Positions 9,009 through 53,393 of a DNA stretch of 64,000 bases are shown piece by piece. The notes beneath the pieces are model-generated. The model worked only from the letters and a program-made list of their open reading frames with translations. It had not been told where the DNA came from and ran no database searches. The stretch is from Polytrichum commune (taxonomy: Eukaryota; Streptophyta; Polytrichopsida; Polytrichales; Polytrichaceae), in the NCBI GenBank assembly GCA_950295325.1, contig OX485803.1:19654001-19718000 (forward strand), read 5' to 3'. The position numbers were made by a program, and so were the translations under genes. Within the stretch, counting starts at the first letter, position 1. Each line of letters starts with the position of its first letter.

Positions 9009-9146
9009 GTTTTTGCTGACTTCGCCAACACATGAAAGTGTGCCCTAACATGAACTTCCTACACACCTCGTGCTCACATTAGGTGTTGAGAGAGACAAAC
9101 CACCAGCCTTTTTTGGGAGGGGGTTTGAAATTTAACAGGCTTCTAA

Positions 9147-9666
9147 TGCCCCATTCCCACCTGACTTTAGCTAAGACTAAAAGTTGGTTCTAACAACGTG
9201 GTCTTCACACCATCGACACTATCTAGTGCTGAGCCTAGTTGGCAAATGATGTGGCATGGCTTAAAAGTGGAGGTTTTAAGCCTCAAGCACCGACCCTCCC
9301 ATCGGTACCTAAACATGAGGCAAGATTATAGGAGCTTTAAAAGTGTCGCCTCCCGCCCTTGTGATTAGTCGCTTTTAATCTTAGCTATGAGGGCACGAGG
9401 AGCTCCATTAACAAAAACCGATGGTAAGATAGGTGAGTAGTAAGGCATTTGGGGATGGGACAAAAACTACTCAACATTCATTGCTTGGTAGATAAAACCA
9501 TGAACATGTGTGAAAGCTACTTAACTATAACCTACTTGAAAATCTCCAGATCAAGTTCTTGTAGGTGCATTGAGATAGCCGGATGCCTTTGCTATAACCA
9601 AGGGAGCTTTACCCGGTTTTTAGGAAATACTTTGGGTCTTGGCTAAAGTCAGGTGGGAAGGGGGGA
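9147..9666. mobile_element. Tourist-like (PIF/Harbinger) MITE, copy 1
   Basis: Terminal inverted repeats begin TGCCCCATTCCCACCTGACT on the left; the right end on the other strand reads TCCCCCCTTCCCACCTGACT. TAA flanks both sides (9144-9146 and 9667-9669), the target duplication used by PIF/Harbinger and Tourist elements. The 520-bp body has no coding capacity. A second copy lies at 37,025. Confidence 0.9.
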
Positions 9667-10082
9667 TAAGTGTTGTGTGAATTTGTGGAAAGAATGGCTA
9701 TACATATAGGCTTGTTTTAGTGTGGAGTTTTTTCACCAAATAACATATATAGTTTTCTGGATATGGCTACAGTGAGCACTTTATAGGATACCAACAATGG
9801 CAAACACAAAGATAAAAATGGCAACTGTGGGGACGAGATGAGGTGCAATTGGCGTCGCGTTAATATCCCCCCATCGAACTTCTATCATTAGGGTTTTTGC
9901 AGCCCGTCGCTGGGTCTCGGGCCGCGGATACTGGACCCGGTCCGTGGAACGGCCCCGGAAGGTACACCCGATATTTGACCACGGCGTCAGACCGGGCCCG
10001 ATTTCAGTCCCGCTAATGAAGAGTTGCATTATCGTCAACGATGGACGGAAAAAAAAGAACTTTCTTAACGGACGGAGTACTC

Positions 10083-10328
10083 TGCACTACGAATTCAAAA
10101 TATGAGCTCCATAGGGATATTGAGAGCGAGTGTAGTGAAGACGGCACCGTAGTGCACTAAGATCCTATATGTGCGGATCTGGATATTTCAAATCTGCACT
10201 ACTCAATCCGCCCGGGAAATCAAACTATGCCGGGTAACACAACCGTTCTCGACTGGTGAGACGTGTCTGGTAGAACGTCCTATGTACTGCCGGAAATATA
10301 TGATATGGTTTGTTGTGTTCTGCACTAC
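10083..10328. promoter_or_regulatory. cluster of TGCACTAC motifs upstream of the transposase
   Basis: Four exact copies of TGCACTAC or its complement occur in 246 bp: 10083-10090 (+), 10149-10156 (-), 10195-10202 (+) and 10321-10328 (+). The cluster lies 190-430 bp before the transposase ATG, in the subterminal part of the element, where transposases or element-encoded regulators usually bind. Function is inferred from position and repetition. Confidence 0.5.
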
Positions 10329-10514
10329 ATCGTCGCCCTGCAAACGGTTAAATTGATGCCTAATCCAATGCATTCTTATCTCGCTGCATTGCATGTGTGC
10401 TTGAATCTTGAGATCGATGTGAAGCTTAGAATCACTTTCAGTTTGACTTAGGCGTAGTCCTTCGAAGAGTTTCACCAGATGTGAAAGTTGTCATGGTATT
10501 GCTCGAACGGCAGT

Positions 10515-13500
10515 ATGGCGTTAGACAGGTCTGCCACTTTCGATCTGGATAGTAGCAGTTTAGTTAGGAACGATGCACACTGCGACTACTCGAAGGAGGA
10601 TCTCGGGGATTGCAGGGTCCAATCTGTATTGCAGCACACGCATCCATCCCATATTGATTTAACAGTCTCTAATGATTGTCTACCGAAGACTGGCACAGGT
10701 GGTCATCTTAAATCTGTACCAACATGTGCTCTTAATTACATCGACCTTGGGGACGCTAGCGATTGTCCTCTTCTAGACCGTGCAGAACAGACTGTCAGTA
10801 AAAATCCAACTTACGTAGATGTCACTGCGTATGTCGACCTTACCTCTGACGACTGGACATCAAATTCTTCTTCAGTCACGGATCAAACATCAGACAACGC
10901 AACATGTAATCAGTCTGCCTCCTCTTCCTTCTCTGATGCAGTTAATGGATCCCAAGGGCAGAGCTCTGGAGAGGGAACTTCCTCTATTTCGCAAAACAGT
11001 GATTCCAATCGTGATTCCAGTCGTGAGAGTGATGTTTCATCAGTTCAGAGCAAGTCCAAGCCTGAGGTTAAGGGGACCAGGGCCGGAAGATGTGCACCAG
11101 ACTCGAAGCCAGCGGAATCGAAGAAGGCATGTAAGGAGAGAAAACCTAACCGCCACATTCTCTCCGAGGACTGGGAGGAGGAGGACACTCCTTACGAGGG
11201 ACCTGAGCGTGAAGAGGAGCTGGTAAGGGGCCTAAGGGACATGAAGCAAACTCCTCCACCGGGTCCTTTCTCCAGAGAAGATTTAACGTGGCTCCCGATT
11301 CGTACACAAGGCGGAGGACGTCACTATATTCACGACGTCGCAGTAATCCCCTGGAGGAGACTTCAAGATTTTAGAGAGGGGGAGGGTCAGGACAAATCGT
11401 ACCCCTGTCGCTTCAACAAGGAGACGGTGAAAAAGAATAAACCTGGAAGTCTGGTATTCCCGAGAGCAAATAGTGCCGCAAAGGTTATCAAGTAAGTTAA
11501 GAACTGTAATTTCCATATTCATTTGATTGTTTATAGCTGTAGTGCATCCTGAAAGACTCACTTTACAGTTTATTTGTTATGTTTTCATTACGTAGTACAC
11601 TTCATGTACGACGTAGCGAGCTGAATAGTTTCCGGTAAGTATTGCACTACATTCAAATTTAACGTGCTTTCTCCATCTCCACTCTCTTAGGTTCACCTGT
11701 AACTTTGGACCTGAGGACAACTCGCATATTTACATCAAAGACCTGAAGGGGCTTCTCCAAGCAGAACAGCAAAGGAGGCGAAAGAGAGTAAAGACAACGT
11801 TAGAGAAGAAACGCAAAGGTAAAAAGGTTACACCGGATTTCAATGCCATGTCTACAGACAGGATCACAGGACAGAAGAAGCCGAGGATTGGGCAGAAGGC
11901 AGCAGGCATGTCGATGAAACGAGGATGTCAGCGGCATTTCCTGGCTAAGCAGAATTATATGGACACTACATTGTGCCACTTGGTGTACAAGGTTACGGAG
12001 CACGTTAATTGTCATGGCGAACAATGCCACGGACTCATGGTGGTTGGGTTCAAACATTCCATGGGAAGTTCGTTGTCCGAGAACATGAAGAAGAAGTTGG
12101 GAAGTATGTTGGACATGGGACTAACCTCCACTCAGGTGATGATCCAACACAAGGCTTTTGTGATGGAGATGGCTTTATCGAATGCCCCGGTGAGCAGGGA
12201 CATGTTCGTGATGGCTCATGACGTTCGAAACATAGCAAACAAGCGTGCGGAGGAGACCTGGATGAAGCACAAGAAGGAGACATTAAGCATCCGACTCTGG
12301 AAAGACGAAAACATTAAGCAAGTGTTTTTTTACCAAGAGCATGGTTTGTTGGACATGAACAAGGTAGAATAAGACGACGCCCCGTTCACTCTTGGATTCC
12401 ACACAGATTGGCAGATGACAATGCTCTTGAAGTTTGGTCACCGTAGTGCAATCTCAATTGATGCCACGTTCGGCACAAGTCACTCGAGGGTAAGTTCACT
12501 ACCAAATCCTCATGATTGTATCACTGGATTTCTTAGAGCACGACGTTGATTATATTGGTATAGGTAACCCAACATCCGACTCTTTGTCAACTCTTTGTGG
12601 CAGTACCCTCTTTACACCGTAATGGTGTTTGACGAATGGCGGAACGGTATACCTGTTGCCTATTTCATCATTTCCAGCTCCACAGAGAACGCCTTAAAAC
12701 CTGTGCTGCAGGCGCTGAAGGACAAGGCCGTCTCTATGAATGTAGACTGGAAACCTTCTTCCATCATAGTGGACAACGCGCAGGCGGAATTGAACATTCT
12801 ACAGTAAGTTCATATACATTATACGAGTTCCAGAAAAAATTTCTTGACAGTATTGCATAGGGCATTATATTGATTTGAGGATCGGTTGTGACCACTTTGC
12901 ACTACAGGGAACTCTGGCCGACATCGAAGATATTTCTTTGTTTCTGGCATGTTAAGAAGGCATGGGCTGAGAACGCGGCAATAAAGATAAGTCGGATCGA
13001 GGATAGAGCAAACTTATTGAAGGAGGTAGGAGATGCACTCTATGGCAAGAGGTATGTCGTTGGGACAGACCCGGTAGCATGGGCTAACAAAGAGCTCGAC
13101 AAGATTCGCGATCGGAGGCCTTCAGCTGCCAAATTCATGAAATATATTGATAAGCATTGGCGGAAGAAGATTGGAATGTGGTGTGCAGCAAATCGAAACG
13201 TGCCTCACGCAGGACAAAACACAAATGTTGGGATCGAGTCGTTTCATGCTAATTTGAAGAGGATCCTCTTGCTTAAGAAGCAGCGGTTTGCAGGACGTCG
13301 GTTGGATTGGTTGGCTGACGATCTAAAGAACAAGGTTACCGGTCATTACTGGTATGCTCGGGCTTTGAAAGAGTTCGGATTTGTCCGAAATATCAAGCAG
13401 GAGTTTCTCATTGCAAGTGCTATTCTCCTAACCCACGAAATTCCGGACTCCTACGTCTACCTGAACCCAGAGGGGGACGACATTGCACTGGTGGTTTCAG

Positions 13501-14222
13501 TTAACAACTACCCCAAGATTTGGACAGTGTATGGGACTGACACAGAGTGGGCGCAGTGTGATTGTTTTGTTGGACAGCAGAACACAATGTGCAAGCATGT
13601 TATGAAGGTTTTTATGATGAAGCATCCGGCTATTGACGAGGGCTTAATTATACGCGAGGCTGGCACTCGGTGTGGGATGGAGCGAACGATCCCAATGGCG
13701 GATGCTTTTGGGTCCACCGAGCAGGACAACGAAGACGAAGTGAAGTTCATGTCAGCTTTCTATCCTCCAGGCGGGAGCAAAGCGTCGACCTCATGTAGTG
13801 CAGAGTCCAACAAGAAGTCGAGCCTTGGAATGAACTCGAATCCGATTGTCTTAAGTGACAACACAGAGCCAGTTAAAAGCCAGTCTGAGGAGCGTCAGTT
13901 TAAAACGTGCGGAACTGAAGGGAATCCGATAATTATCGAGTCTACACTACCCTCGCAGAACAGATCGAAACAAGACGACCCTGCTGAGTTGATTCGGGAT
14001 ATCTTGAGCACTGCAGGGAAACATAGCGAATTGCAGAATCACTTGGTGGCAAACTTGAAGAGTATTCGCGGGAGATACAGAAAGATGATTGCTCGTGGCA
14101 TTGCATGCAAGGAGGTCAAGGAGACGACCCCCACATTCCCTCTTAGGGAAGGGGACTGGTCGCTTAAAAGAAAGCTAGGTCGATTGGAAGTTCCTAGGGC
14201 AAGTAAGCGCTGTAGAGCATAG
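10515..14222 (+). CDS. MULE transposase with SWIM zinc finger (one in-frame stop)
   Basis: Four exons join in frame: 10515-11491, 11691-12489, 12604-12803 and 12908-14222, about 1,096 residues. The N-terminal third is acidic and Ser/Thr-rich; then comes a basic stretch (EQQRRRKRVKTTLEKKRKGKK). The DDE core has D583 in SIDATFGTS, D649 in SIIVDNAQAE and E769 in VGIESFHANLK, with FLCFWHVKKAW between the last two, as in MULE transposases. The SWIM finger is CDC-x8-CKH (C876, C878, C887, H889). The C-terminal tail is basic. One TAA (12370-12372, codon about 553) interrupts the frame just before the first catalytic Asp; family-like sequence continues in frame after it, so it looks like a recent nonsense change rather than the true end. 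The enzyme would cut and rejoin element ends. It faces the Ulp1 gene tail to tail. The ATG at 10515 is the first in frame. Confidence 0.85.
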
Positions 14223-14422
14223 ACGAATCGAACTGTTAAGTGCACTACCTTAATACTTTCTAGATCTAACACTGTTCACAGTCGGAATGTAGTGCGTAGA
14301 AGACATGAGTAACAATGTGTACTACATATATTTTATTCATCAAATGAATATCAATTTCTATTCGAGAATATTTCTTATGAAAGTCCCACTACGATTTCAT
14401 GTCCAATGCTAACCATGTTGCC

Positions 14423-14864
14423 TAGAGGGAACTATCAGGGACATTGTGATGACAGGAAACATCGGTACTACTAGCAGACGTTGTTGAAGGTGTATCACGG
14501 TTGACCTTTTGACCACGAATCGGACCCTTCACAAGCGAACGATACGAACTGCTTCCGTGAACCTCCTCAGGCCAACCAGACAGCGGGAACCGAATTATCT
14601 TCCTTGACTCCCCCCCCCTCCGTGAAGACGGCGTACCGAATGTACGCCTTGACTTAGAGGACCTTCAGATTCCCTGAGTTCCACCCGGGCCTCTGGACAC
14701 ACTACCGGATCTGACTCGGAAGACTTGCGCTTCGGTTTAGGTAGCACGTACGAAGTTCGAGTGCTCACGTGTGCCATCGGTAATGACACCGCTGAATCTT
14801 GTGCGAGTGAGGCTAGGATGGTGACGACTTCGTCCTCCAACACTTGAATTGAAGGGGAATCCAT
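14423..14864 (-). CDS. small unrecognised minus-strand reading frame in the MULE
   Basis: An ATG at 14864 opens MDSPSIQVLEDEVVTILASL and continues for 89 codons. A second open frame then runs to a TAG near 14,423 (ending HHNVPDSSL). The switch of frame falls close to a run of nine G on this strand at about 14,611-14,619, so either an intron or a slippage indel separates the two. I recognise no domain. It lies between the two convergent main genes and may be an extra C-terminal exon of the minus-strand gene or an independent small gene. Confidence 0.3.
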
Positions 14865-14984
14865 AGTGTTGTCCTAGACCATCATGGATGGGAAAAATGA
14901 GACGTTATCGTATGGACAGGGTCTTTATATAAATATTTATTGTCTGTAAATCCAAAGAGTGACACATTGCCGGCTTGGTGTAGG

Positions 14985-15022
14985 GCTTAGGGTTTAGAGG
15001 TTTAGGGTTTTGGGTTTTGGGT
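14985..15022. repeat. short plant telomere-like tract
   Basis: GGGCTTAGGGTTTAGAGG is followed by TTTAGGGTTTTGGGTTTTGGG, degenerate TTTAGGG units. It sits between the convergent genes of the MULE. Similar AAACCCTA boxes recur near 20.19 kb and 26.08-26.38 kb. Confidence 0.6.
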
Positions 15023-15434
15023 TTCCAGAATAAATATAATCCTCTGATGCATTCTATGGTTCATGTAGTGCAGAGCGATACTATTCTAATTGGTAGTGCG
15101 CGTTGGAGAAGTACAAAGAATGCAGGGTTGACATTGAATGATTATCAGTACCCACACTGTAGGAGATTTACATTCACTCATCTATGAGAACAATACCCTG
15201 TGGACCGTCATCTACCTCCACGTTGCAATGGTTTCCTTCGCTGCATCGAACGTCACTGTTGTCTTTCACTACACATCCATCGTCCTTATCCTGATACGAT
15301 CCTCTGTCAAACCCAACCGACGATTGGCACAACGTCCTATCTACCGACCATGTGAGCATTGCGGAGACAACAACTCGTTTCATATTTTGTTTCATGTCCA
15401 TCACCTCTCCCATGTCAAAAACGTCCGACATCTG

Positions 15435-17074
15435 CTACATAGTCAGACACCGGTAAAAAATCAATGTTAGTTCCAACGAGCATGTGGCGGTAGAGTGACC
15501 TAGAGGCCGACTACAACGGTAGAACACTGTGGGAAAGGTACAAACCTCGCATGTCCAGTCCATGACGTCGTCTCCCATTTGGAACGCCAGGTACATGGTA
15601 ACGAAGCACATAACGTAGTATCCACACGACCATCCATCCTCCTGTTTTGGGCATCGAACATGTATCCAGGTCCTAATATCACTACTCTTCTCCCACATTA
15701 CTGTTCCTTCCGACTGCCCTATGGCCATGCACCATACTTGTCCGAGGCATTCATGCAATTTTGCAGAACCGTGGAAACTTACTGACGCAGACGGTCTGGA
15801 GTCGAACTTTAAGAAGGCGTGGTCGGAGAGCACAGCTAAACTCCAGTGATTGCAGTCAACGACGGGAACCATGACGGTCCTCCCTTTCATGCGCTTAAAC
15901 CCTGATTTCTTAGTATAAAACTTGTGTAGTGCAGAGGTTGAAAAGGGTTTCTCGACTAGGGCACGAAGACTACATCCAACTAGGGAATTGCATAGCAGGA
16001 CATCATCTGGGATTATAGTCTGGAACCATATCGTAAAGAAATCCATGAGCGGTGTAGTGAGTAATCCGTCCTTCGAATCGAGGACTTCTATGTCTGGAGT
16101 CAGACGAAGAATTGTACTGCCCGAGTCAAATATGAATTGCATGTGGCCCCTTGCAAGATCACCACACTCCGACTTAATGCGGTCTCTCATGAGGTTGTAG
16201 GCACTGCAAGACAACACGGCGTCAAACTCTAGGCAGCACAACGACTGGTTGCAGGACAGTGGAGGTAACACAAGCACGGCGGTAACTGCAACGGCAACAC
16301 ATACGTCTTTCAGTATTACACCTACTTGAGATCCATCAGCAAGGCGTTTTTTCAATAGAGCATCAATTACGCACCTCAAAATGTACACAGGGAAGGCTTT
16401 TCCCCATTCTACCTACAACTTATGATTGCAGAATCCAGGGGGGAGACCGACATCGCCACCGCATTGTCTTCGGGGGGTTTCCTGTCCCCCAAGGTTAGTC
16501 TTAGATGGTCTTCTACGACTTTGTTCGCGGCGGCAAGGTCCATTGCGCGAACCGGGGAATCCAGAAGTTGTGAACTCCCAGACTGTAACCTGAACGCTAC
16601 CCGACTCGGAGTCCGCCTGAACCACCCGGATCCAGCCCGCATAATTGGAGGCGAGGGGTTCATCATATGTTGAAAGAGAAGTTGCCTCTCGTTCTCCCTG
16701 TCGTCGACCATGGGGGGTAACCTACTGTCTAAGCATATATGGGATTCGGCCGTTACTGCTAAAATCATTTGCAATGCCGCCTCATTCTCTGCGCCGTCCA
16801 TGGTTGCCTTGTTCTGTTTGGTGGGATCTAACACCCCCAACGGCACTACGTTGGGCGGCACTACGGGTGCCGAGTCGGATGCGCATCCCTGTGGTGCGAA
16901 CCCGAGTTCAGCAAAGGTCCGCTGTAGCTTTTACTCGCGTAGCTCCAGCAATAATTGTACTACGCATCCAACGGCCTCCTTCAATTCATCGGGAACAGGT
17001 ACTTCGTTGTCCAGTCCCAGCATTGACCATCCAATGTCCACGTTTTCACGAATACATAACATCTTCGACAAAAC
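15435..17074 (-). CDS. Ulp1-like (C48) cysteine protease part of MULE gene
   Basis: This is the C-terminal part of the minus-strand MULE gene. In the 317-codon frame from 16388 the protease core shows the full catalytic set: His181 in VVDCNHWSLAV, Asp196 in LKFDSRPS, Gln249 in CPKQEDG and Cys255 in GWSCGYYVMCF, preceded by a helix-rich entry region (PLMDFFTIWFQ). Ulp1/SENP proteases process SUMO or related modifiers; MULEs of the KI/Kaonashi type and other plant MULEs are known to carry such domains, with unknown role. Upstream, an exon starting at an acceptor near 17074 (VLSKMLCIRENVDIGW) runs in frame to about 16,409 with one TAA at 16931-16933. A splice junction around 16,409-16,430 joins it to the protease exon. 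A donor after WTCE near 15,543 suggests the last exon may be short. The protease core itself is intact. Confidence 0.75.
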
Positions 17075-17185
17075 CTAAAAAACAACAAATGAACGACAAT
17101 GTAAGGATGTCTGCCCGACCTAGGTATATCCAAATCGTCACTGACCGCACATAGGAGAAGACACCCCCTCATTCATTACACTTAC

Positions 17186-18049
17186 CTCATTACAGTGGGC
17201 GCGTAGTGCAGCGGGATCATCTGAACCAGTCCTCCACCACATTGCCGCTAGTTCTGCCGAGTATTTCCCGTTCCGATGCAAGTCTACTATGGCGCGGCGG
17301 GCAACGCGGTTCAAAAAAGTTTCAATGGTCTCCAGGACGTCGTCTTGGTTCCAGCCCTCGAACCCCATCAGCCCAAGCATGTCTCCCCAACATCGACGGA
17401 TGGGAGCACAAATTCCGCCAAAAATGCAGGGGAAAAGAGCCCATCCAATATCTACGACGTCCTGTGCACACGCCGACAGTCGTTTGGATTCTACATCGTC
17501 TTTTGCTATTGCCAACATGTTCCGCCTTGTCATCCCCGTGATAGGATGTGAAATTGGCGAACATCGTCCGAAGGAAATGCGTCCGTATAGCTTCAGAGCG
17601 CGGATGATGTGAGGGCAGTCCAGCTCTAAGGACATGGGTTCCCCCTTCACGTCTGCCTACAACGCGGATAAAATGTCGTGGACTTCCTCCTGCGTATGCT
17701 TCCACGGTCGTGTCGGTACCCCTGGAGCTATTTCCTTGCTAAGAATCCTGAAAAGGGGAGACCAACCCCAGTCCATATCCTCCACTCGCATTGCCCTCTC
17801 ACGATCAAAAAGCTGGAGTTGCCCTACAATATGAGACCTTCGTCGATCCTGCAGAGCCACTTCGGCGTTGAGGTGTTTGGACACGTACTGCGTTTTCTCC
17901 CGGATATAAATTAAGTACTGTTCCAATTTGGCCAATTCGGCATTTCTCCCCTCGTTGTTTGTCAACTCGATGTACGGATTCCAGGGCTTCACTGATATCA
18001 TGACGAAGTTCAATTCGTCCGTGTGTTTGGCATCGATCACGCCCCCCGC
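17186..18049 (-). CDS. middle segment of the MULE finger/Ulp1 gene
   Basis: An in-frame block from a likely acceptor at 18049 (AGGVIDAKHTDELNFVMI) to a strong donor (GAG|GTAAGT) at 17186. It encodes charged, helix-rich sequence, including a coiled-coil-like part (ELAKLEQYLIYIREKTQYV) and a conserved-looking GWALFPCIFGGICAPIRRCW stretch. I recognise no catalytic domain. One TAG (17657-17659) interrupts it without change of frame. It probably links the N-terminal zinc-finger part to the C-terminal protease in one protein of over 1,000 residues; separate genes cannot be excluded. Confidence 0.5.
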
Positions 18050-18071
18050 CTACGAGACATGCAACATGGTT

Positions 18072-19971
18072 TTAGCCTGGGTCTGCCCGCACTACCCGTT
18101 CCCTGACTTGGAGCCAAAGCAACAAAACATGCACTACAACAAAGGACATGTCTGAGAATACATGTGCTTCTTTCCACGCCACCCAGGGTCCAATTGCTGC
18201 AAGAATCCTTGCACCAAGTTGGTCACGCTTCTCCAGGCTACGAAGCTCAGCCATGCATTGTTCAGCATTGTGTAGCAATTGTCGGTCGATTATGACGCAT
18301 TGCGGCGACTCTTGAATCAGGTGATACAAGCCCGCGATGCCTTGTTCTGGAGGAGGAGGGCCAATGTTCGGGTATGTGTTTTCCACTGTTAACGACGATG
18401 CATAACGCCGAGCTTCATCTAGAACCTGTTCTCTAGTGGAATCCGGCGTGAAACTATACACTGATGTATTCGCCTCTACCTGCACTATGCCAGCCATACT
18501 GCTTCCCTTCCCGGCGTCGACATGTATCAAGGTGAAGAATCCCTCCACATTGCCGAAATCCTCGGAGATCTGATGGCTGCAATCGCGGTCCTCTCTCACC
18601 AGCGATAGCACTTCGTCGTCTCCAACTCTGTCCTTCTTCTTCTTCATTGCTTCCGCGAGCGAGGTAGTCTTCTTCTTGTTGCCGCCTTCGCGATCCTGTT
18701 TATTGCGCCCGGAACTTGGACTGTACCATTCGCGTCCCCGCTTCGACGACACGCCTTGTATTGAAGGCTCATTTTTCGTTGATGGTTTACGAACGACCGG
18801 CACAACACCAGTAGGATTGTCGCTACCCTTTTCCTGCACTACAGTAGCACTACCTCTCTGGATTGCGTTCTGTACCGACCCTTCTATCCTTTCGGTCGTG
18901 GTGTGAAGCTCGGAAGAGGTAGGTGGAGCCGGAGCCTGTTTTAGCGTCTTCTTTTTGACCCTAACATCCTCTATACCTACACCGACCGATGTTTCTTTAG
19001 AGGTAGTCTTTGTGGTCCTGCTCTTCCTAGTCTTCGGTTGCACTACAGGGTCTGTATGGGCTACGTGGGCTACGTGAGCTACAATCTCTCTCGGGTTCCA
19101 CGGGCGCCGTCCCTCCTTCTCAGGAAACAACAAACCCACTCCCAAAAGGATGTCCTTCAAGAGGTGTTGCTTGCTCTGTGAAAATGTTGGGTACATTTTC
19201 AAAATTCCTATTCCAACCTCCCTCCACTTTTTGCATTGGTCCTTGTAGCGATGATAAGATAGAGCATTCTTATCCGAGAAGTCCATGTGACAGTATTTGC
19301 ACCAGTAATGGTATCGCTTCTCTGACCCAGGGTCCTCCCATAAGTGATATCGGCACGTGTAGTGCGTTTCTATCACAAGAGCCTTGTACTCTTCCTCGGT
19401 GTATAGACACGCACAGGGAACTCTACCCTACTTCAACTCGGCCCTGTACACCCTCTCCCCTCCGACCGTGAATCCTTGCAACATGGACGGAATAACAGAG
19501 TTTAAATGGGCGACAACGCTCCAAGAACCCTAAACCGACGTTCCATATTGACGACTCAGACGACTCAGACCTATGTCCGAACCTTACCTCCTGCACACCC
19601 GATCGCCCCTTTGACACTAGTCTTGTCCATGTCTCCAGCCCCAACCCCTCAATAAGTCGTTTGTCTTCGTTTACGATAAGTTTGTCGTCATCAGGAAACT
19701 GAATTCGTGGGCCTGTTACTCCAATGCCGAGAAAAGAAATAGAACCCGAAGCTATAGCAGGCGCCAACGTTGTCTTGCTTTCCCCTCGGGAGGCACTGCG
19801 GTTTCCAGATCGGTTCGACAGAGATATTGGAGGGACGCCGAATTCAATATCAGTGTCAGTTTCGGCATCACTCTCCTCAATTACTCCCCTCTGCAGACCC
19901 AGTAGAGGTTCGATGGCAGCGTCGATACTAACGTCCTCCTCCAATAGTTTGTTAGACCTTGCTCTGGTCAC
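18072..19971 (-). CDS. N-terminal C2HC zinc-finger part of the MULE gene
   Basis: Opens at an ATG at 19971 (MTRARSNKLLEEDVSIDAAI), acidic at first, with VNEDKRLIEGLGLETW further on. It continues through CLYTEEEYKALVIETHYTCRYH to a finger of spacing C-x2-C-x12-H-x5-C (WCKYCHMDFSDKNALSYH then RYKDQC), then KMYPTF and a Ser/Lys-rich linker with several nuclear-localisation-like basic runs (KKKTTSLAEAMKKKKDR). Comparison with the second copy at 25.1-26.0 kb suggests an insertion or intron near 19,490-19,590, where this copy shifts frame, and a TAG at 19438-19440 where the other copy has CAG (Gln). The finger suggests DNA binding, which makes it a candidate reader of the TGCACTAC motif; this is inference. 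I know no named family for it. Confidence 0.6.
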
Positions 19972-21007
19972 TCTCCGCCGCGGATCTACAAGACCATAAG
20001 GGAATCAAAAAACGATGTGGAAATATGGGTTCAGAATTTAATACGATGCCTAATTCCTACATAATTTCCCTCGTGCCTAGAACCCAAGTATAACGTTTAT
20101 TCATTACACCTACACCGTGAGCTCTCTAAACACAATCTTGACATGCTTGGCACCAACGCCCATACCTCCACCGAATCCACCGTAACCCTAAACCCTCAAA
20201 CGCAGCGTAATCCAGGAGCATGCGAAGACCTGAACTAATTTGCTAAAAAGAAAACCCAACATGTGAAAGGGAAATTAGTTCACGCTCCTCCAAGCCCCAC
20301 ACGAGAACACGCGGAAACACTGCAAGCACGACCGGCGAAATGAAGATTTCCACTCTCTAAACGCCCCCCGGAGGAAGGTTTAGCCGCCCCTCACCTGGTT
20401 CCATTGCGCATTGCCGCGGCTGTCCTCGCCAGGCAACGCAATAGGGCCTGCACCAGAAACCTAACCGGAGGATTGCGAGGACGTTTTCACGATCACCACC
20501 ACCCTGAAATTCAAGGCTCGAAGAGCAGGGCCACACAAACGAGACACTGAGTAGCAGTACGATTTTCCCCCCATAAACGACCCGCCCTCCTGCAGAACAA
20601 CGACGGTGCAGCACAAGCCTGGCTCGCGAGGACACTTCGCTATATATACAGAATTTGAGCCAGGCCAGACGGTTTATTGTGCTGGTTGATTTCATTTACA
20701 CTCTTCATGTCCCCCTCCGACAAGTACGCTCTGTCTTGCCATCCTCGTAGGTTGTTTATCGTAATGTATTTGTTTACCTGCAATTTCTTTCCTTATCCCT
20801 TCTGTTTTCATCATATTTGTAATTCTATTTTATCATAACCCTTTACATTTTCTATGAGGCTCTCATATTCTACCTCCAATTCTTCATTTGAAGATCTACA
20901 AAAAATGTCATCTAACACTAAATGCGCTTTTGTAAATATTCAAAGTTACTAATTGGTACAAATAGTGTTAGAGTTGACATTTAGTGTTCTAACACTATGA
21001 AGACAAT

Positions 21008-21680
21008 TGAGAGTTCTGTAAGATTTTATAATGTTGTGCCTAATGTGACTAATACCTCGGCATGGTATTAGTCACATTAGTCACATCATTATACAATCGT
21101 CCCTAATCTTAATGTATTGTATATGAATTTGCATATGAAACATTCCTATCATTACCATGACCAAAACCAACACACTCCAACACGTAGTGCACCATTTTAA
21201 CGATTTCTCGATTTAAAATTGAATTTAAAGCGAATAAAAATAAAAATAAAAATAAAATAAAACAAAATATCAAATGACCGTAGAAACTTGCAAAATTCAA
21301 ACTTCCTTGATATACTAACTATGGAAAAAAATATCAAAAACTTAGGCCTCAAGGTGTGAGAGTTCTGTAAGATTTTATAATGTTGTGCCTAATGTGACTA
21401 ATACCTCGACATGGTATTAGTCACATTACTCACATCATTATACAATCGTCCCTAATCTTAATGTATTGTATATGAATTTGCATATGAAACATTCCTATCA
21501 TTACCATGACCAAAACCAACACACTCCAACATGTAGTGGACCATTTTAACGATTTCTCGATTTCAAATTGAATTTAAAACGAATAAAAAATAAAAAATTC
21601 ATAAAAATATGTCACAATACCAAATGACCGTAAAAATATGTCACAATATCAAATGACCGTAAAAATTTGCACAATTGAGG
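21008..21680. repeat. direct duplication of a ~300-bp segment
   Basis: The segment starting GAGAGTTCTGTAAGATTTTA at about 21,009 recurs at about 21,358 with near identity for over 230 bp, including the ACCAAAACCAACACACTCCAA block. Both copies end in A-rich tracts followed by CAAATGACCGTA. The two copies are 349 bp apart. Confidence 0.88.
21040..21080. repeat. perfect 17-bp hairpin
   Basis: CTAATGTGACTAATACC at 21040-21056 is followed, after seven bases, by its exact complement at 21064-21080. The duplicate copy at 21389-21429 keeps 16 of 17 pairs. Confidence 0.9.
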
Positions 21681-24090
21681 GTTATTTAAAAACTACCATG
21701 ATAGCGTTCATTTAATTAGTAATTGAAATCATTTAAAAAACTATTCTCCTCAAATTTGGCCTCAAATCACTATTTCTAAGAGAGATAATTTAGGACTCAA
21801 TTTTTGAGCATCCAACCATACGGATATGATATTGGCCTTTATATGAGCTATAAATAAATAAATAAATAAATAAATATATATATATATCAACTGCCCATGT
21901 GGCAATGTGAATGAGAAACTAGTACGTATGTGAAGGTATAATGGGCGGGATAGATGATTGAGAACAAACTTTGACCCTACATATATCATCAAATGGATGA
22001 TAGGATGCGACCCAATTGGCATGAAACTTTTTGCATAAGATTTCTAACTAAAATTTGAACCTTCGAGGCTTGAAACTTATATGTTTGCATCATATATGAT
22101 TTTTCGAGAGCCCTTGCAATGTGTAGCACTATGTTTTTACATCCAATCTTACAAAATGTTTTCTAACTAACTTCAAAAATTCCAATTACCAATCCCAACC
22201 GTAGATTACTCAAACATAAAATGAACTATATTTTCACAAATTTTCATATCTGACACATTTCCTAATGTATCATGAGGTTCAGTCAAACACCAATGGAATT
22301 TGGGACATTGAATGACTTTGAAAATTTCCACAAAGTTGAAATTTAGTCCAAATCCAATGAAATTGAAACGCTGGATGAAAAATAAAATTCATTCATTTTA
22401 TATCAAAAAATCACCTCCATCTAAAAACGGAAAAGGTCTATTTAAAACAAAACCATCAAAATTAGGTCATTTTGAGTCTCTCAAGGACTTAGGGGTTAAG
22501 CAATGGAGCCTCTAAGATATAAGGCACTAAGTCAATTGGATGAATTAAAGGAAGCTCATGCTCACGCTTTAAAGTCAAGCGTAATTTATTGCATTGTATG
22601 TCAAGCGAACTACACTTTGGTCAGTGTCACACACACAAATGAACTTTTGAACAAACCATATTTATGTAGTATGTGATTATTCTTATTTTTATTCGCATGT
22701 GTAAATAAATGAAATCCATCGAGCCTTCACACACTTCAACATTTCAACTACCGTAGTTTTGAGGGACTCAAGTGTTGTTGCCCTCCAAGTTGGCCTTCAG
22801 AACCTGGTTTACTTGCTTCATGAGATAGTGAAGTTTATTTCCCCTTATAAGGTAGACAACCTTATTCGGTTAGATTTTCTTAGTAGGACACCTATATTTG
22901 AGTGGTGTTTGTTTAGTGAGGATATCAAAGAGATTGGACTACATGCTCAAAATGTGATAAGGTAGAGACACCTATTCATGACAATATAAGGGAATTGGTA
23001 ACTGGGGAATGCAAAGAGCATGGAATGAAATCATGAATGTGTTAGCAAATCCAAAAGGAAGTGTTGGGCGTTGGAATCTGAATTTTTGCATGCTCGAGCA
23101 ATTTTACACACATTTCTGAAGCAAGGGTGTTGTAGACACTTATTCTTAAGCCATAGACTTATCCAAAACAAACAAATGAACAACTGTGAAGCAACATAAA
23201 TGATGGCGAGAAAAGTTAATGTATGTTATCAAAAATTGGGAGTTCCATCTAGTGACACCTCCCAAATGTCAAAAATTGCCATCCTCCATCCCTAAAACCA
23301 CCCATGTGAAGTTCCGGGCAACTTCACATTCACTGTCAACCACTTTGTGGTGATGTTATAGGGGTCAGAATTAGGTCGTTGTCATGATAAGGTGTCTCTA
23401 CCTTAACCATTCCAAGTTACTAGATAATCATCATAATTGAAGCGATCTATACGATTATTTTATGAATGTGAGACTCTTCACTTTGATATTGTATAAAATA
23501 TATATTTTTATTGGACCTCAAAATTTGAGCCCTTTAATAGATCCTAAACCGTTTTTTTACATCCTTTCGTCAAGAAATATATTCATTTATCTTTATTGCA
23601 TTTGTGAGCCCAAAAATACACTCACATTGGTGCATTGCGTTAAAATGGTTCAATTATTGGCTAATAAGTGTGCACGGAGTTAAACTAGGTTGAGGGATGA
23701 GGAGGAATCAAATGAAATGCATGATAATGTGTCTTGACCCAAAAGACAAGAGAGAAGAGACAAAAGGGAATAACCCCTAAACCTAAATAAGATTGGAATT
23801 TCTTCCGGGCTGCTCGAGAGGCAACAAGGCAGCGGAAAACTCTATGGGGGGAAGCACATCAATTTTTCTATATTGTCCCAACTCTGCAGCTTTTATGTTG
23901 CGACCAGATCCCATGCTGCAGTAGAGTGTCCCAAATGGTGGTGAAAGAGATTTGCTGGTGGGCTGTTGTGAGTTGTTTCGCAGTTTTTGTGGTTCATACA
24001 TTACACCTTCCATTTGTTGTTAAATGGTATTGCAGATGGTGTTAGTTGATGCTACAGTCTAAGATGCTTTAATGGTGGTGTGTCCTTCAG

Positions 24091-24764
24091 AGAAATCTTG
24101 GAGTCGACAAGGTGCTGATAGTAGACTGGGATGTGCATTATGGAAACGACACACAAAAGATTTTCTGGTAGGATTCCCATGTGCTCTACATCTCTCTTCA
24201 CAGGTGTGCCATCGAAGCTTGATATTTATATTATTGATCCCTTCAGGTAAAAGGCATGTGTGTACTATGCATCGATATACTGGAGAGTTGGAACCTTATT
24301 CTGACGCTAGAGTTTGGAAATTCATTAGTGGAGACAAGAGCCTTCGTCTTATGGAGAGCTATTAAAGATAATGTGCTCTCCTAAGTGTACATGCCTGTTC
24401 CTTTTGGCCTAACACATAAGTTCAGGATCCATGTGATTTTTTCCTGATTATGTCTGCCTCAGTGTCTATCTTTTGAGCTTAAGTGAGGCACGGAAATTTT
24501 CTCTCGAGCATCTGTTGATGTTTAAAGTGGGTTGTGTTTGGTTTGCGCACAGATATGACGATGGAGAGTTTTTCCCAAAAGGAAATGAGGGTAATTTTGA
24601 CCAAGTTGGGAGTGGCAAGGGGTTAGGTTATAACATAAACATCCCGTTGCCACATGGGGGATTTGGAGATACTGACTTTTTAGCATTTTTGGAGCACATA
24701 GTGATGCCAGTCGCTCGTGTATTCAATCATGGCATGATCTTCATATCTGCCGGATTCGATTCAG
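24091..24764 (+). pseudogene. class II histone deacetylase gene fragment
   Basis: Two exon-like pieces are recognisable. 24091-24167 reads [20 protein letters not shown] then KIFW, the deacetylase block with the zinc-binding DxH; the second His of the usual VHHGN is Tyr here. 24553-24764 reads YDDGEFFPKGNEGNF through GLGYNINIPL to FISAGFDSG, including the other zinc-binding Asp. The closest fit from memory is plant class II enzymes (HDA5/HDA15 type). The upstream RPPGHHA block, the exon with SVHR and all downstream exons are missing, so this cannot be an active enzyme. It lies between the MULE finger gene and the second finger copy, so it is either a captured fragment inside the large element or a host gene cut by insertion. 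Confidence 0.75.
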
Positions 24765-24769
24765 GTGAA

Positions 24770-25103
24770 TCTCAAATACCAAGACCCTTGCATTTGCGAA
24801 TAATGGACGTATCATGATGTGTCTATTAAGACATTTTTTAGTATGTATAATATGTTGTGTACTTACAAAGTGCACTCTTGGAGGATACTTGTCACGGACT
24901 GCTCCAACTCTTTGTTCCGTTTCATTAAAATTATTGTTGTGTTTTTTCTTATGTATAAGTTGACAGGGCATGTAGATTGTCCACTCCTAGGAGTCACTGG
25001 ATCTTAACACTGTTATCACTATATTCGTTAATTTGAAACTTTCTCTTGTCTCAAATTAAGTTATGGACCACAACAACACAATCTAATGTTATAGTCGTCC
25101 TAC
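24770..25103. other. AT-rich spacer between HDAC fragment and second finger copy
   Basis: No gene, repeat or clear transposon end is visible. The GC-rich second copy starts just to the right. Confidence 0.4.
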
Positions 25104-26067
25104 CTAAGCCATCTTGATATGAGTTTTTAATTGGGTTCGCCTTCGACTAGAGCTTGGACTCATTCCCGCTGCTACGTGTGGTACCTGCTCAGCATACCTG
25201 ACCCGAAGTGCCCTGGTACTACCTCCTTCCTGTCTTGCTGATCCACTCGACTTCGTCTGCATTGGAGTGCATTTAGGTCTGTTCATAGCAATTGGCGGAG
25301 GTCGCTCTTCTACCGAATTCAACGCCGCCTCTACCCGAGGAGCTCAGGGCCGTTGTCCTTCCTCACGTGGAAATGTGAGACCACACTGGGCTAATACTTC
25401 TACCACAGCCTTTGTGTCGGATGGCTTAAAGGTGGGATACATTTTCAAAACCCCACCTTGCCCGTTGGTTAACCGCTTCCACACATCGCACTGGTCCTTG
25501 TGTCGGTGATAAGACAGTGCGTTCTTGTCCAAAAAATCCATATGACAGTACCAGCGCCGTTTATCCTTCCCTTGCACGTGATAGAAATGGTAGCGACATC
25601 AGTAGTGTGCTTCTACGATCAAATCCTTGTATTCATCTTCAGTGTACAGGCAGACCAGTGGGACACGTCCTTGGGTCAATGTAAATCGGTAGACATTCTG
25701 ACCTTTCGCTGTAGTGCCTTCGATCAACCCCACTGGCCCGTTTTGTACGAGATTCCACCACACATCGAATCCGAGCTCCTCTATAAGTCGATGGTCCTCG
25801 TTCACATTGACGATACCTGCAGAACTGTCCCTATCGAAAATCCCCCCCGTGATCCCGAGCCCGTAGCCAACCACCCCCGAATTGCAATTCTGATGCCGTA
25901 TCTCGGTGCAGCCATTTTCCCTTGAATCCAATCCTTGCTTCTGCACTACCCTCGGCATCCCGGCTGCACCTTTGCGGGAGTGCGACGTCCTGAACCTGTA
26001 ATGTGGCTTCGGGAGGTCTGGTTGATTGCTTGGGAGGGGTGACGTACTCCTCGAACGTGTTGTACAC
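25104..26067 (-). pseudogene. second, truncated copy of the MULE C2HC-finger gene
   Basis: The frame from 25958 carries VNEDHRLIEELGFDVW, then GRVPLVCLYTEDEYKDLIVE, and after a TGA continues in frame with CRYH, CHMDFLDKNALSYHRHKDQC and KMYPTFKP. These match in order the copy at 18.1-19.9 kb but at clearly lower than complete identity, so it is a related paralogue rather than a recent duplicate. The first Cys of the finger is replaced by Arg. Upstream, a different frame (25831-26067) opens the gene. The linker, middle and protease parts are absent. Two motif copies lie here (25711-25717, 7 of 8; 25942-25949, exact). Confidence 0.7.
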
Positions 26068-26429
26068 TGGTCTAAACCCTAGTACACCCTAACTATTCAA
26101 AACAGTCCAACGCTCTATTTGGATTACCATAAGATGACCCCTGAACTTGGGAAACATGGTGCCAACTCCACCCTAAACCCTTCACAGCCTATGTTACGGA
26201 GTTCTATAGAACTACCTAAACCTTCACGATAGAACGTAGACAGTTTTGCGACATTAAAAATAACAACCCTAAACCTCACCCTTGTGTATCTGGTACTACA
26301 CGTATAATGTTCGTGTCCGACTTTACGCTCCGATGTTAGTCTTACATCCCACAGCCTTCTCTCCTGACCCTAAACCCTAAACCTCGACCTACTTACATGC
26401 TCCATCTATGTTGTACAGTTCACCCCAAA

Positions 26430-26559
26430 CGCTTGCCCACAACACTAAACCACGGCTCATCTTCCCATTCAACGATACACTACACACACCCGAACGCTTG
26501 CCCACAACACTAAACCACGGCTCATCTCCCCATTCAACGATACACTACACACAGCCGAA
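26430..26559. repeat. 65-bp tandem duplication
   Basis: Two adjacent 65-bp units starting CGCTTGCCCACAACACTAAA differ at only a few positions. They sit in the presumed upstream region of the truncated finger gene. Confidence 0.88.
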
Positions 26560-26689
26560 CTCTAACCACAAACTAGGGCAACACAACGCAACACACGAAG
26601 AAAGGTGCACTTCGGACCGGGGCACAACTCTAACTGCAAGACAAGAAAAGACGACAGGGTGAAAAGATGACACTACTAAGCTCACGGAC

Positions 26690-26940
26690 TACTGCACTGG
26701 GCCGGTTGACCCGGACCGGGTGGACCGGGCCGGGTCCGGAGGCCTTATCGCGGGCAGGGACGTGGCAATGGGACGGGTGGGCCGCCGCGCGGGGGTCGGG
26801 GGGTTTTTGGGACCCGTTCCGCCCTCCAAACCCATCCTTTCGCGGGCAGAGGAAGATTACCCGCGGGCGCTCTATTTCGGGGTTGGAGGGGGGGTCTGTA
26901 ATGAAACGCGTGCAATTGTGGTAATCTTTGCCATGTTCAC
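26690..26940. repeat. GC-rich probable right end of the MULE region
   Basis: A GC-rich tract with nested CCGGACCGGG / GGGCCGGGTCCGG palindromic words is followed by GGAGGGGGGG, AACGCGTGCAATTG and ATCTTTGCCATGTT. The complement of the last part resembles the left edge at 9,772-9,890, suggesting degraded terminal inverted repeats. The GC-rich block mirrors one near 9,900-10,000 (GGACCCGGTCCGTGG). Confidence 0.4.
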
Positions 26941-36100: not shown

Positions 36101-37024
36101 ATTATATACATATATAATATAGCATTAATATCATATTGCTATTTTATACATAATCTTCTTTTCATAATTGTAATGAATAATATATTATTATGAAATAGGT
36201 AAGGTTTTAAATTTTGAATAGAGTCCAATAATAGTAGTATTGTTGTATTGAAACATGTACTAAAACATGTTTTATATGCATTGAATACAAAAGAATACAT
36301 GTATCAAATATTTGGTGACTTAGGATTTGTCAAGGTCTCTCCACAAACAAGAAGATTATAGGTCTCACCCAATTCTCAAGAGCCCTTTGTCTTTGGGTGA
36401 TGCTTACTGCCTTACCACAACAATGACAATAAAGAGTTCAACCTACATTAACTATAAAGCTTTTCCTAAGATCATAAGTTAGGTCACCTTAAGATGATAA
36501 ATAAGGCGACTAATTCAATAATAAACATGCAGGCCTTCAAAGGGGGTTGCGTAATTGAAAGCTCAAAATTCGTTAAATCTGAAACCCTACCTAAGGCAAG
36601 CGTTATCTTAAACAACCACCTATATTTGCGTGGTGGGTGGTTGGGTGTGGATTGGACTACATGGTCAAGATGTATTAACCATTCTAAACACAATAGTCAA
36701 CATCATCATCATTATTATTTTATTTTATTTTGGGGGGGTGGGGTGGGGACCTATGTGACTTTCTTATGGCTCTTCTTATAGCTCTATACAAAATCGGCTA
36801 ATTGGGCCCATAACACACTACTTATTTGTTAGTGGACTCTGATAATTCAAAACAACTCAAGACTAGCTCCAAAACGTTATGAGATTGAACTTGGATTCTT
36901 CATATACATTTGCAGACGCTCATGCATTTCAACCTCGTGAATTTGAGTAGTATAAGCTAGCAAAGAACAAAACGTAAGCAAATAATCTACCCGAGTGTCT
37001 CCAAAGCCTCCACTTGCTAGCTTA
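33130..37024. other. AT-rich intergenic region
   Basis: No gene recognised. 33,240-33,340 contains two TTTACACTAGGG words and resembles, in reverse, 60,960-61,025. 36,630-36,690 carries a fragment of the repeat family seen at 59.4 and 61.1 kb (GATTGGACTACATGGTCAAG). The rest is low-complexity AT-rich sequence. Confidence 0.45.
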
Positions 37025-37550
37025 TGCCCTCTCCCCACCTGACTTTAGCTAAGCCTAAAAGATGGTTCTAAAAAACACGGCCTTCACGCCATCAACGTTA
37101 TCTAGTGCCGAGCCTAGTTGGCAAATGATGTGGCATGGTTTAAAAGTGGAGGTTTTAAAAGCCTCAAGCACCGACCCTCCCATCGGTACCTAGACATGAG
37201 GCAAGAATATTGGACTTTTAAAAGTGTCGCCTCCCGTCCTTGTGATTGGTTGCTTTTTAGTCTTAGCTATGAGGGCACGAGGAGCTCCATTAACAAAAAC
37301 CAATGGTAAGATAGGTGAGTAGCAAGGGATTTGGAGATGGGACAAAAACTATCCAACAACATTCATTGCTTGGTAGAGAAAACCATGAACATGTGTGAAA
37401 GTTACTGAACTAAACCCTACTCAAAAACCTCCGGAGCAAGTTCTTGTAGGTGCATTGGGATAGCCGGATGCCTCCCTTATCACCGAGGGAGCTTTACCCG
37501 GTTTTAAGAAAAACTTTGGTTATTTGGTAAAGTCAGGTGGGGAGGGGGCA
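37025..37550. mobile_element. Tourist-like (PIF/Harbinger) MITE, copy 2
   Basis: Same family and same orientation as the element at 9,147. It starts TGCCCTCTCCCCACCTGACT and ends, on the other strand, TGCCCCCTCCCCACCTGACT, flanked by TTA at 37022-37024 and 37551-37553. The two copies align over their full length with scattered substitutions and small indels, implying an old burst. Confidence 0.92.
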
Positions 37551-37553
37551 TTA

Positions 37554-38553
37554 GTATCAACTAGTACTATTCCCTGCTATTCTTGGTATGTGAAATTTGA
37601 CATTAGTAACAAATATGTTCAACACTCTTTTCTCCTCCACAATAATGGTGTGCAAACATGATTATTATCTAATCGAGCATTTTAGCAAGCCGGGCATTAT
37701 TTCATAGAAAATCCAAGTTTTGAGTTACCCGTAGAGTGCATCCTGCTTCCGCTTTCTTACATGTTTGCCACATGGCACTCTTGCATTGGTTGGGACCCAC
37801 TCAAGTCCCCTGTGGAACTTCAGAACAGATAAACCAGGAAGCACCTTAGAGTACTGCCGACAACACTTTGAAAGAAAGGAATGAACCAGAACAGACAAGA
37901 ATTTGGGAGTATTTAGTGATTTTCTACAACCCCACACTGACATTGCATGTTAGATTTACACTCCAGTTTCACCAAATACTGCACAATTTCACCATCAGCT
38001 GCACGTGCACACCACGATTTCATACATCGGCGATTCGACACTGGAGAGTATTCAGTTCCTCCACCTATCAGCAACAGTTTTCCTCTCCTAATAAGGCTAC
38101 CAAATTATATCCACACTCTCTTGGCAGCAATGAGATGAAATCGGTTTTCAATTTCATGAAGCCATTATGGCTACATGGACTTTGAAGCTTATGGCTACCA
38201 CTAGAAGTACAATCAAGGCGGCGGAGTCCAAAAAAATCTAATTCCCTGGGGTGACGAAGGGCGATGGCTTTTGTGACTAGTATCCATAAGGTAATCAAGT
38301 TGGTAGAAAGATCTGAGATTACCTCGCTCTACATTCTGCAATAGAGATGCAAATCTCAATCTGATGGAGCATTGAAAGGGCATTTGAACGCAAAATGAGC
38401 CTCGTTTTCAACCACGTTGTGAGAACAAATGTGGCTATGGTTTCTCTAGGGATTCAGGTAGTCGGCTTCCATCAACGCTTCTTCCATCCCGCTGAGTATC
38501 ATTGAGATGCAGCCACCGTATCTTCGGGTTTGCATGATTTTTTTTTTTTTCAA
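37554..38553. other. spacer, no gene recognised
   Basis: Open frames of about 60-105 codons on both strands lack family features. The right half probably contains the 3' untranslated region of the minus-strand gene ending at 38,554. Confidence 0.4.
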
Positions 38554-52980: not shown

Positions 52981-53393
52981 CAACACCCTTTGGAGCTGCA
53001 GAAATACTAGCACCCTTGAACTGCAGAAAATACCCGCACCCTTGGAGCTGCGGAAATGCCAACACCCTTGAGCTGCAGAAAATACTAGCACCCTTGGAGC
53101 TGCAGAAATGCCAGCACCCTTGCGCTGCAGAAAATACCAACACCCTTGAGTTGCAGGAAATGCCAGCACCCTTGAACTGCCGAAAATACCAACACCCTTG
53201 GACTGCAGAAAATACCAACACCCTTGGACTACAGAAAATACCAGCACCCTTGACTGCAGAAAATACCAGCACCCTTGGAGCTGCGGAAATGCCAGCACCC
53301 TTGACTGCAGAAAATACCAGCACCCTTGGAGCTGCGGAAATGCCAGCACCCTTGCGCTGCAGAAAATACCAGCACCCTTGGAGCTGCAGAAAA
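52981..53393. repeat. 16-unit minisatellite of ~26 bp
   Basis: Sixteen units share the core CACCCTTGGAGCTGCAGAAA and alternate between a longer type with GAAAATACCAG and a shorter type with GGAAATGCCAG. Unit lengths of 24-27 bp keep long frames open on both strands (up to 158 codons on minus), which reflects repetition rather than a gene. Confidence 0.93.

Follow-up and report, generated by a model that had tools for sequence, protein, structure and literature searches.

The window analyzed here is a stretch of 64,000 nucleotides of Polytrichum commune DNA (contig OX485803.1 of assembly GCA_950295325.1, positions 19,654,001 to 19,718,000). It contains a 17-kb insertion, identified by the sequence of its transposase as a Mutator-like transposon (MULE), along which the eight-base word TGCACTAC recurs at a frequency far above chance. 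An earlier note on this DNA, made from the sequence alone, had drawn attention to the word, and had suggested by analogy with the Arabidopsis VANDAL elements that the transposon marks itself for a protein that it encodes. We have examined the word in the window, in the close copies of the element and in its relatives within the same genome (408 Mb in 64 contigs, seven of which account for almost the whole length). The observation is real and stronger than first noted, in that related MULE clades carry different words.

The Element and Its Genes

The insertion is flanked by a perfect 9-bp target-site duplication, GTGCAATTG, falling in the range of 8-11 bp for MULEs (Table 1). The same genome contains at least five further close copies, four of which (c2-c5) were fetched at length. 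The left end at window position 9850-9852 is common to c2-c5, and c2, which can be aligned up to window position 26909 with interrupting insertions, is bounded at the corresponding ends by a perfect 9-bp duplication of its own, TTTTTGTAG. From the common left end and the duplications of the window copy and c2 we take the element to be 9852-26909, in place of the 10083-19046 previously given. The right ends of c3, c4 and c5 were not located, and for these copies no target duplication was found. The termini of the window element resemble one another in GCGT and scattered matches only, with no long terminal inverted repeat.

Gene 1 encodes the transposase. When exons 2-4 are joined, with X in place of the stop, the resulting protein matches PF10551 with E = 3.7e-18 (66 bits, against a cut-off of 27.6). 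On the minus strand gene 2 encodes a C2HC finger, followed by a middle part and then an Ulp1-like part, and as modelled exons a-e look like a single gene. The assignment of the last part to peptidase C48 is weak but consistent. The PF02902 scores of gene 2 (E = 0.012) and gene 3 (E = 0.0031) are both under the Pfam cut-off, and the SUMO protease 6dg4 matches the Ulp1-like part of gene 2 with E = 0.025; a catalytic set of H, D, Q and C is visible by eye in exon e, and the homolog P0028 carries PF02902. Gene 3 is a paralog of gene 2, colinear with it and 33%, 43% and 39% identical in the three parts; the window copy has only the 5′ part of gene 3, and c5 a longer version. Scans of gene 2 exon e, the open reading frames (ORFs) of gene 3 and seven finger homologs gave no Pfam match to DUF1985 or DUF287 at E up to 1, and none was found in gene 2 exons b-d at E 0.001. 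A genome search with PF09331 was without matches, its control being equally silent.

Table 1. Positions of the element, its genes and the copies of the word within it, numbered from the first base of the window
Feature	Position	Strand	Remarks
Left target-site duplication GTGCAATTG	9843..9851		identical to 26910-26918
Whole MULE insertion, 17,058 bp	9852..26909		starts GCGTCGCG, ends AAACGC
Right target-site duplication GTGCAATTG	26910..26918		matches left copy
Gene 1 (MULE transposase) exon 1	10515..11491	+	modelled
Gene 1 exon 2	11691..12489	+	modelled; in-frame stop at 12370
Gene 1 exon 3	12604..12803	+	modelled
Gene 1 exon 4, transposase C-terminal part	12908..14222	+	SWIM finger only below Pfam cut-off
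Gene 2 exon e, Ulp1-like (peptidase C48) region	15435..16412	-	weak profile match
Gene 2 exon d, middle region	16412..17078	-	modelled; one in-frame stop
Gene 2 exon c, middle region	17187..18049	-	modelled; one in-frame stop
Gene 2 exon b, C2HC finger (C-x2-C-x12-H-x5-C) and low-complexity linker	18177..19478	-	one in-frame stop
Gene 2 exon a, N-terminal part	19588..19998	-	modelled
Gene 3 remnant, 5′ part of paralogous finger-Ulp1 gene	25140..26071	-	longer in copy c5
TGCACTAC	10083..10090	+	5′ region
TGCACTAC	10149..10156	-	5′ region
TGCACTAC	10195..10202	+	5′ region
TGCACTAC	10321..10328	+	5′ region
TGCACTAC	11539..11546	-	gene 1 intron 1
TGCACTAC	11643..11650	+	gene 1 intron 1
TGCACTAC	12443..12450	-	gene 1 exon 2, coding
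TGCACTAC	12898..12905	+	end of gene 1 intron 3, at modelled splice acceptor
TGCACTAC	13795..13802	-	gene 1 exon 4, coding
TGCACTAC	14241..14248	+	gene 1-gene 2 intergenic
TGCACTAC	15065..15072	-	gene 1-gene 2 intergenic
TGCACTAC	15926..15933	-	gene 2 exon e, coding
TGCACTAC	17203..17210	-	gene 2 exon c, coding; earlier note gave 17213
TGCACTAC	18130..18137	+	gene 2 intron
TGCACTAC	18835..18842	+	gene 2 exon b, coding
TGCACTAC	19039..19046	+	gene 2 exon b, coding
TGCACTAC	21184..21191	-	A+T-rich repeat region within element
TGCACTAC	25942..25949	+	gene 3 remnant

Density of the Word in the Window

Exact matches to TGCACTAC number 19 in the window, against 1.5 expected, and none of 100 shuffled sequences reached 19. 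Sixteen of the 19 lie within 10083-19046, the remaining three being at 21184, 25942 and 39447. All three had been described as outside copies; their positions are right, but the first two are within the element, leaving 39447 as the only copy in the window beyond its limits. Fifteen of the 16 other coordinates in the earlier note were correct, and its seven 7-of-8 matches are all real, four of them shifted by one base; sites with at most one mismatch number 95, against 42 expected. In an unbiased count of every 8-mer over 9.5-20.3 kb, TGCACTAC is the most over-represented (16 observed against 0.25 expected). The core GCACTAC is found 23 times in the same interval and six times in the remainder of the window. 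It is preceded by T in 16 and followed by A in 12 of the 23, further flanking bases being variable.

The word is rare in the genome as a whole, with 13,363 copies in 408 Mb. This corresponds to 0.033/kb, in agreement with the chance level of about 0.3 per 9 kb originally estimated, and compares with 1.06/kb in the element (18 in 17,058 bases). The reversed word, counted as a control, has 8,448 copies genome-wide, below the number for TGCACTAC. Elsewhere, at C1:2252669-2256505 of the genome (G000), ten copies occur in an array-like run on a single strand with spacings mostly of 127-179 bp, which is perhaps a satellite. The word forms no tandem arrays in the window element.

Copies in the element occupy both strands and are spread over the promoter, introns, exons and the intergenic gap, as had been observed. 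Ten exact copies lie in 3.0 kb of non-coding sequence and six in 7.5 kb of coding sequence of the modelled genes, and the corresponding numbers for the core are 13 and 10. The density is thus higher in non-coding than in coding sequence, by about 4-fold for the exact word and 3-fold for the core. Codon use does not account for the coding copies, as was originally maintained: over 2000 synonymous-codon permutations the coding core occurred 1.4 times on average and 7 times at most, against 10 observed, and none of the permutations reached 10. The shuffles, the ranking of 8-mers and the synonymous permutations together rule out the word as a product of chance or codon usage.

The Word in Close Copies of the Element

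The word was correctly seen as a property of the MULE family, being present in all five of the other close copies examined. There are 27 copies in the stretch from c3 (20.4 kb) and 19 in that from c5 (20.6 kb); these stretches include insertions and have right ends that were not located, and the counts are partly due to a 3-kb region that both hold and the window copy lacks. The 16 window sites were compared with all 8-mers for retention in each copy. They are intact at 13 of 16 in c2 (84.5% of all 8-mers; P = 0.77), 16 of 16 in c3 (83%; P = 0.05), 15 of 16 in c4 (83%; P = 0.23) and 13 of 16 in c5 (61%; P = 0.08). In the reverse direction, all 13 c5 sites are intact in the window (P = 0.0016).

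Some other features of these copies and of the surrounding DNA may be recorded here. A 350-bp direct repeat lies within the MULE at 21008-21676, its units containing a hairpin with 35-nt arms, and c3 has inverted extra copies. To the right of the common part, c3 contains at 22923-24020 a 366-amino-acid (aa) ORF that by inspection only resembles a BED-finger hAT transposase. A repeat of about 530 bp with inverted ends of about 60 nt is present in two copies (88%) at 9143-9671 and 37021-37555, one of which adjoins the left side of the MULE. Genes of the DUF4419 and maltose acetyltransferase types are found among the neighbors, and hint at a bryophyte host.

Different Words in Related Clades

A search of the genome for the transposase, in which the best 94 of 472 candidates were scored, gave 105 matches at 94 loci. 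The best 30 of these loci were taken for analysis of words, and six more were fetched later. Six of the 30 belong to the focus family, and TGCACTAC is the top 8-mer in five; the other, L024, which contains an insertion, has four copies of TGCACTAC and a different top 8-mer. The word was present at none of the remaining 24 loci. In 21 of them another 8-mer came top, with log10P from -7.7 to -14.8, the exceptions being L030, L034 and L047. By comparison, nine of ten control windows taken from the 64-kb window had best scores of -3.9 to -6.0, and the flanks of other copies (n = 4) scored -3.8 to -5.2. The tenth control scored -16.5 owing to a tandem repeat at 52934-53440 (about 50 bp by self-alignment offsets, with several frames open). 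The 21 enriched loci form four groups, and are therefore not independent.

These relatives have 41-57% transposase identity with the focus family. TGCACTAC was not found in 152 kb of non-focus relatives (65 stretches), where 5.0 copies would be expected at the genome rate, and this rules out a single ancestral word retained everywhere. No relatives were found in viral, prokaryote-genome and plasmid collections.

Words of related spelling differ between several MULE clades of this one genome. The focus family has TGCACTAC(A), in both non-coding and coding DNA. The word is TGTTCT(G/A)C in clade A (5 loci) and TGT(A/C/T)CT(G/A)C in clade A2 (9 loci). Clade B1 (3 loci) has TGTCCTTC, to which L081 was added with three copies each of TGTCCTTC and TGTTCTTC; the word of clade B2 (4 loci) is also TGTCCTTC, some copies lying in 21-bp and ~220-bp tandem arrays. 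The core GTCATTC is found 20 times in 11.6 kb of clade B3 (2 loci) against 2.2 expected, and 6 and 5 times in 3-kb stretches fetched afterwards, with 0.5 expected in each. For clade D the degenerate word TGT(C/T)CT(T/G)C, chosen after inspection of the two loci, occurs 14 times in L047 (0.7 expected) and 8 times in L083 (0.5 expected). Marking is clear in five clades (focus, A, A2, B1 and B2), which among them have at least three clearly different words. The words of the listed clades share a nine-base frame, approximately TGNNNTNCA, and none contains CG. Eight of nine word groups are single clades in the transposase tree, B2 being split by B3; the support for the B1 clade is only 90/81.

Clade G (L030 and L034), the sister of the focus family, has no enriched word. 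Its Ulp1 and finger frames look degenerate: in the alignment the L030 finger is without one cysteine of the first pair, and the Ulp1 frame has two stops. The two loci, at C6:5.14 and 5.19 Mb, are near-identical with 277-aa transposase frames. L043 contains GTCCTTCA 10 times and GTCATTCA 7 times in 4.3 kb, as if it were between two words. The focus element itself has a low-level excess of the clade A word TGTTCTGC, 6 in 17 kb, and these may be what is left of an earlier word, or else conserved coding sites.

As a further check, the words defined at the transposase were counted 5-9 kb away, in stretches next to the finger genes. These counts are inflated by near-identical copies, most of all in A. 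There were 11 words in 4.1 kb for A, 7 in 3.6 kb for B1 and 3 in 5.8 kb for B2, and for B3 two each of TGTCATTC and TGTCCTTC in 1.5 kb. No word was found in 0.9 kb for A′ or in 0.9 kb for E. The B1 stretches also contain TGTCCTGC (4) and TGTTCTGC (2), and those of D contain TGTTCTGC 5 times in 1.3 kb.

Exon 4 of the transposase was subjected to 2000 synonymous permutations per test, using one or two loci for each group. The observed numbers of words were 4 in A against a mean of 0.45 (0 of 2000 permutations), 5 in B1 against 0.46 (0 of 2000), and 4 in A2 against 0.63 (2 of 2000). In B2 there were 2 against 0.35 (77 of 2000), which is not significant. A homologous Val-Leu-Gln triplet is encoded by different synonymous codons in A (TGTTCTGCA), A′ (TGTTCTACA) and three of the four B1 loci (TGTCCTTCA). 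It is TGTTCTTCA in L081 of B1, in one of the two A2 loci shown and in E, and in B2, B3 and D the clade's own word is not at this triplet. At a second homologous site, where the amino acids are changed, A has GCAGAACA, B1 GAAGGACA and D GAAGAACA; A2 has no word there.

The Finger-Ulp1 Gene as Partner of the Transposase

The transposase is regularly accompanied by the finger-Ulp1 gene. We examined up to 15 kb downstream on the opposite strand for the first 62 transposase loci, those of at least 295 bits (a cut of our own choosing). An Ulp1 match was present at 61 of the 62 and a finger match at 53. At all 53 loci with both, the order was transposase, Ulp1, finger. Over all 94 loci there were 62 Ulp1 and 55 finger matches, with both at 53 and no finger in the wrong orientation; the lower-scoring 32 loci had a finger match in 2 and an Ulp1 match in 1. 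These searches score the best candidates only, so that absences are soft. Finger homologs were located by tblastn, a pattern search for finger ORFs having given false matches only.

A code relating finger residues to words was derived from the finger alignment and fixed before six test loci were fetched. It was weakly consistent at C1:51M (TGTCCTTC 3 and TGTTCTTC 3 in 2.8 kb) and mixed at C4:52.9M (TGTYCTKC). It failed at C5:10M and C7:6.4M (core GTCATTC), and neither of the two E loci had a clear word.

Discussion

We propose that TGCACTAC is a family-specific self-recognition word, that is, a binding address for a protein that the family itself encodes, the finger-Ulp1 protein being the most likely one, with an anti-silencing function; we give this reading a probability of about 0.5. 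The family spells TGCACTAC(A) along a 17-kb convergent MULE, with the transposase on one strand and the C2HC-finger and Ulp1-like gene on the other. The finger-Ulp1 protein of that family would bind the word at many sites along the element. Once bound, it would keep or make the chromatin of its own element active, and families with other words would be left untouched. The components of this proposal may be graded separately. Judged by the sequences, it is very probable that some protein reads the word, and the finger protein is a good candidate for that reader; by analogy, the balance tips slightly toward anti-silencing as the effect. A wider proposal is speculative and in our estimation unlikely. 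It would hold that there is a self/non-self code across the MULE superfamily, in which each clade spells its variant of approximately TGNNNTNCA both within and between its genes, with synonymous codons adjusted to it, and a finger-guided Ulp1-type protease recruited to these sites removes SUMO or some similar modification from silencing complexes, the whole having arisen outside the VANC lineage.

A number of observations weigh against the self-recognition proposal. Word retention between close copies is weak evidence, being mildly above neutral at most, and the probability given above does not rest on it. The gene models of the window copy contain four in-frame stops, for which reason this copy is probably now non-autonomous; in c3 and c5 no stops interrupt the open exon 4 of the transposase. 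The earlier note had named gene-keeping relatives without enrichment as evidence against its idea, and such relatives are found in part, in clade E and in clade G with its degenerate-looking frames. No word is clearly enriched in clade E (2 loci), yet its locus at C3:7.08 Mb retains transposase, Ulp1 and finger; the degenerate D word occurs 10 times in clade E against 1.5 expected. B1 and B2 use one common word, and the words of A and A2 overlap. Beside the A2 finger gene TGTACTGC is found 4 times in 5.8 kb, and the other A2 spellings not at all. The two-residue finger code is rejected, being weakly right once, mixed once and wrong twice, and in view of its failure the finger protein is only a candidate reader. 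Lastly, L090 (C1:26.86 Mb), a transposase relative from among the 32 lower-scoring loci with no finger-Ulp1 match nearby, has as its best 8-mer CATGTTAC, with a borderline log10P of -6.2 in 3 kb (TGTTACA 8 times in 3 kb against 0.6 expected). That borderline word would point to the transposase as reader.

If the transposase does bind the words, many internal sites might serve for finding and synapsing an element that has no long terminal repeats. The close agreement of the transposase tree with the word groups would then be natural, as would the four TGCACTAC copies within 480 bp of the left end, and the word of L090 would need no finger-Ulp1 gene. However, the sites extend over 17 kb and through exons, the right end has no cluster, and in the VANDAL elements, which likewise lack long repeats, such words serve a different protein; we consider the transposase an unlikely reader. 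The four words upstream of gene 1, and others in introns and the intergenic region, could alternatively be enhancer sites for a finger protein that simply activates transcription of the element encoding it, with silencing not targeted. The greater density of the exact word in non-coding DNA fits such a role. The ten exonic cores against 1.4 expected do not, and nor does the similar excess in exon 4 of A and B1, so that we regard the activator explanation as distinctly unlikely.

It is very improbable that the words were left behind by mutation or neutral change, for example through the spread of tandem repeats or copying from the promoter. The tandem arrays of some B2 words are of the kind that this would produce, and retention between close copies hardly beats neutral. 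Nevertheless, the words of the focus family have variable flanks and lie on both strands, A and B1 have different words at homologous codons, and the synonymous permutations reveal a coding excess in the focus family and in other clades. If the words were instead bound by a host factor such as a repressor or splicing factor, the overlap of one TGCACTAC with a modelled splice acceptor would fit. Different words in related clades would hardly be expected of a host factor, and the sites are on both strands and also beyond introns; we attach scarcely any weight to this explanation.

The closest known systems are the VANDAL MULEs of Arabidopsis. These elements have VANC anti-silencing proteins, family words and no long terminal repeats, the word of VANC21 being YAGTATTAY and those of VANC6 AGTTGTCC and AGTTGTAC (PMC5735166). 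The same paper finds the target words of VANC21 and VANC6 enriched in tandem arrays within non-coding DNA of the respective families, stating the same orientation for VANC21, and reports that at some copies VANC21 changes methylation without transcription (PMC5735166). According to a 2026 review, some Ulp1-bearing VANC genes likewise act on words in related elements, and the capture of Ulp1 is dated near the monocot-eudicot split (PMC13317346). The Kaonashi elements (KIU) are described as Ulp1-bearing MULEs (PMC6117577, PMC13317346). The comparison also drew on PMC10398659 and PMC6446971.

The element studied here is like VANDAL in having a MULE transposase, no long terminal repeats and an additional encoded protein, and in a short word that is concentrated in one family, uncommon outside it and replaced by others in related families. 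Tandem arrays are shared only partly, in clade B2. The earlier analogy with VANC was borne out by the other words in related clades, as a self-recognition code predicts, but not in orientation or coding sites. The words themselves differ, the focus copies are on both strands with 6 of 16 in modelled exons and no word arrays, and the candidate reader has a C2HC finger and an Ulp1-like part, with no DUF1985 detected in the scanned ORFs. Here, moreover, five clearly marked clades occur in one genome. The likeness to the Kaonashi elements is a MULE containing an Ulp1-like (C48) gene, and the difference is that the Ulp1 part here is downstream of a C2HC finger in an apparently single gene. The host also differs, since to judge from the genes near the element it is probably not an angiosperm.

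Short words in both orientations that are bound by an element protein are also found in En/Spm, with TNPA, and in the subterminal repeats of Ac, and TNPA has been linked to loss of promoter methylation. Those words are near the ends only, whereas here they run through the whole element including exons. A literature search at listing level, covering mostly non-subscription papers, gave no report of family-specific words through MULE exons or of a finger-Ulp1 gene.

Sequence-specific anti-silencing by transposons is already known from Arabidopsis VANDAL. The five marked clades, with the same type of partner gene and in some cases an open transposase exon 4, make a natural panel for co-change of protein and site. 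If self-recognition is true, the protein of each family should prefer its own word. The panel bears on why the sites extend into exons, and on whether plants saw more than one invention of escape from silencing.

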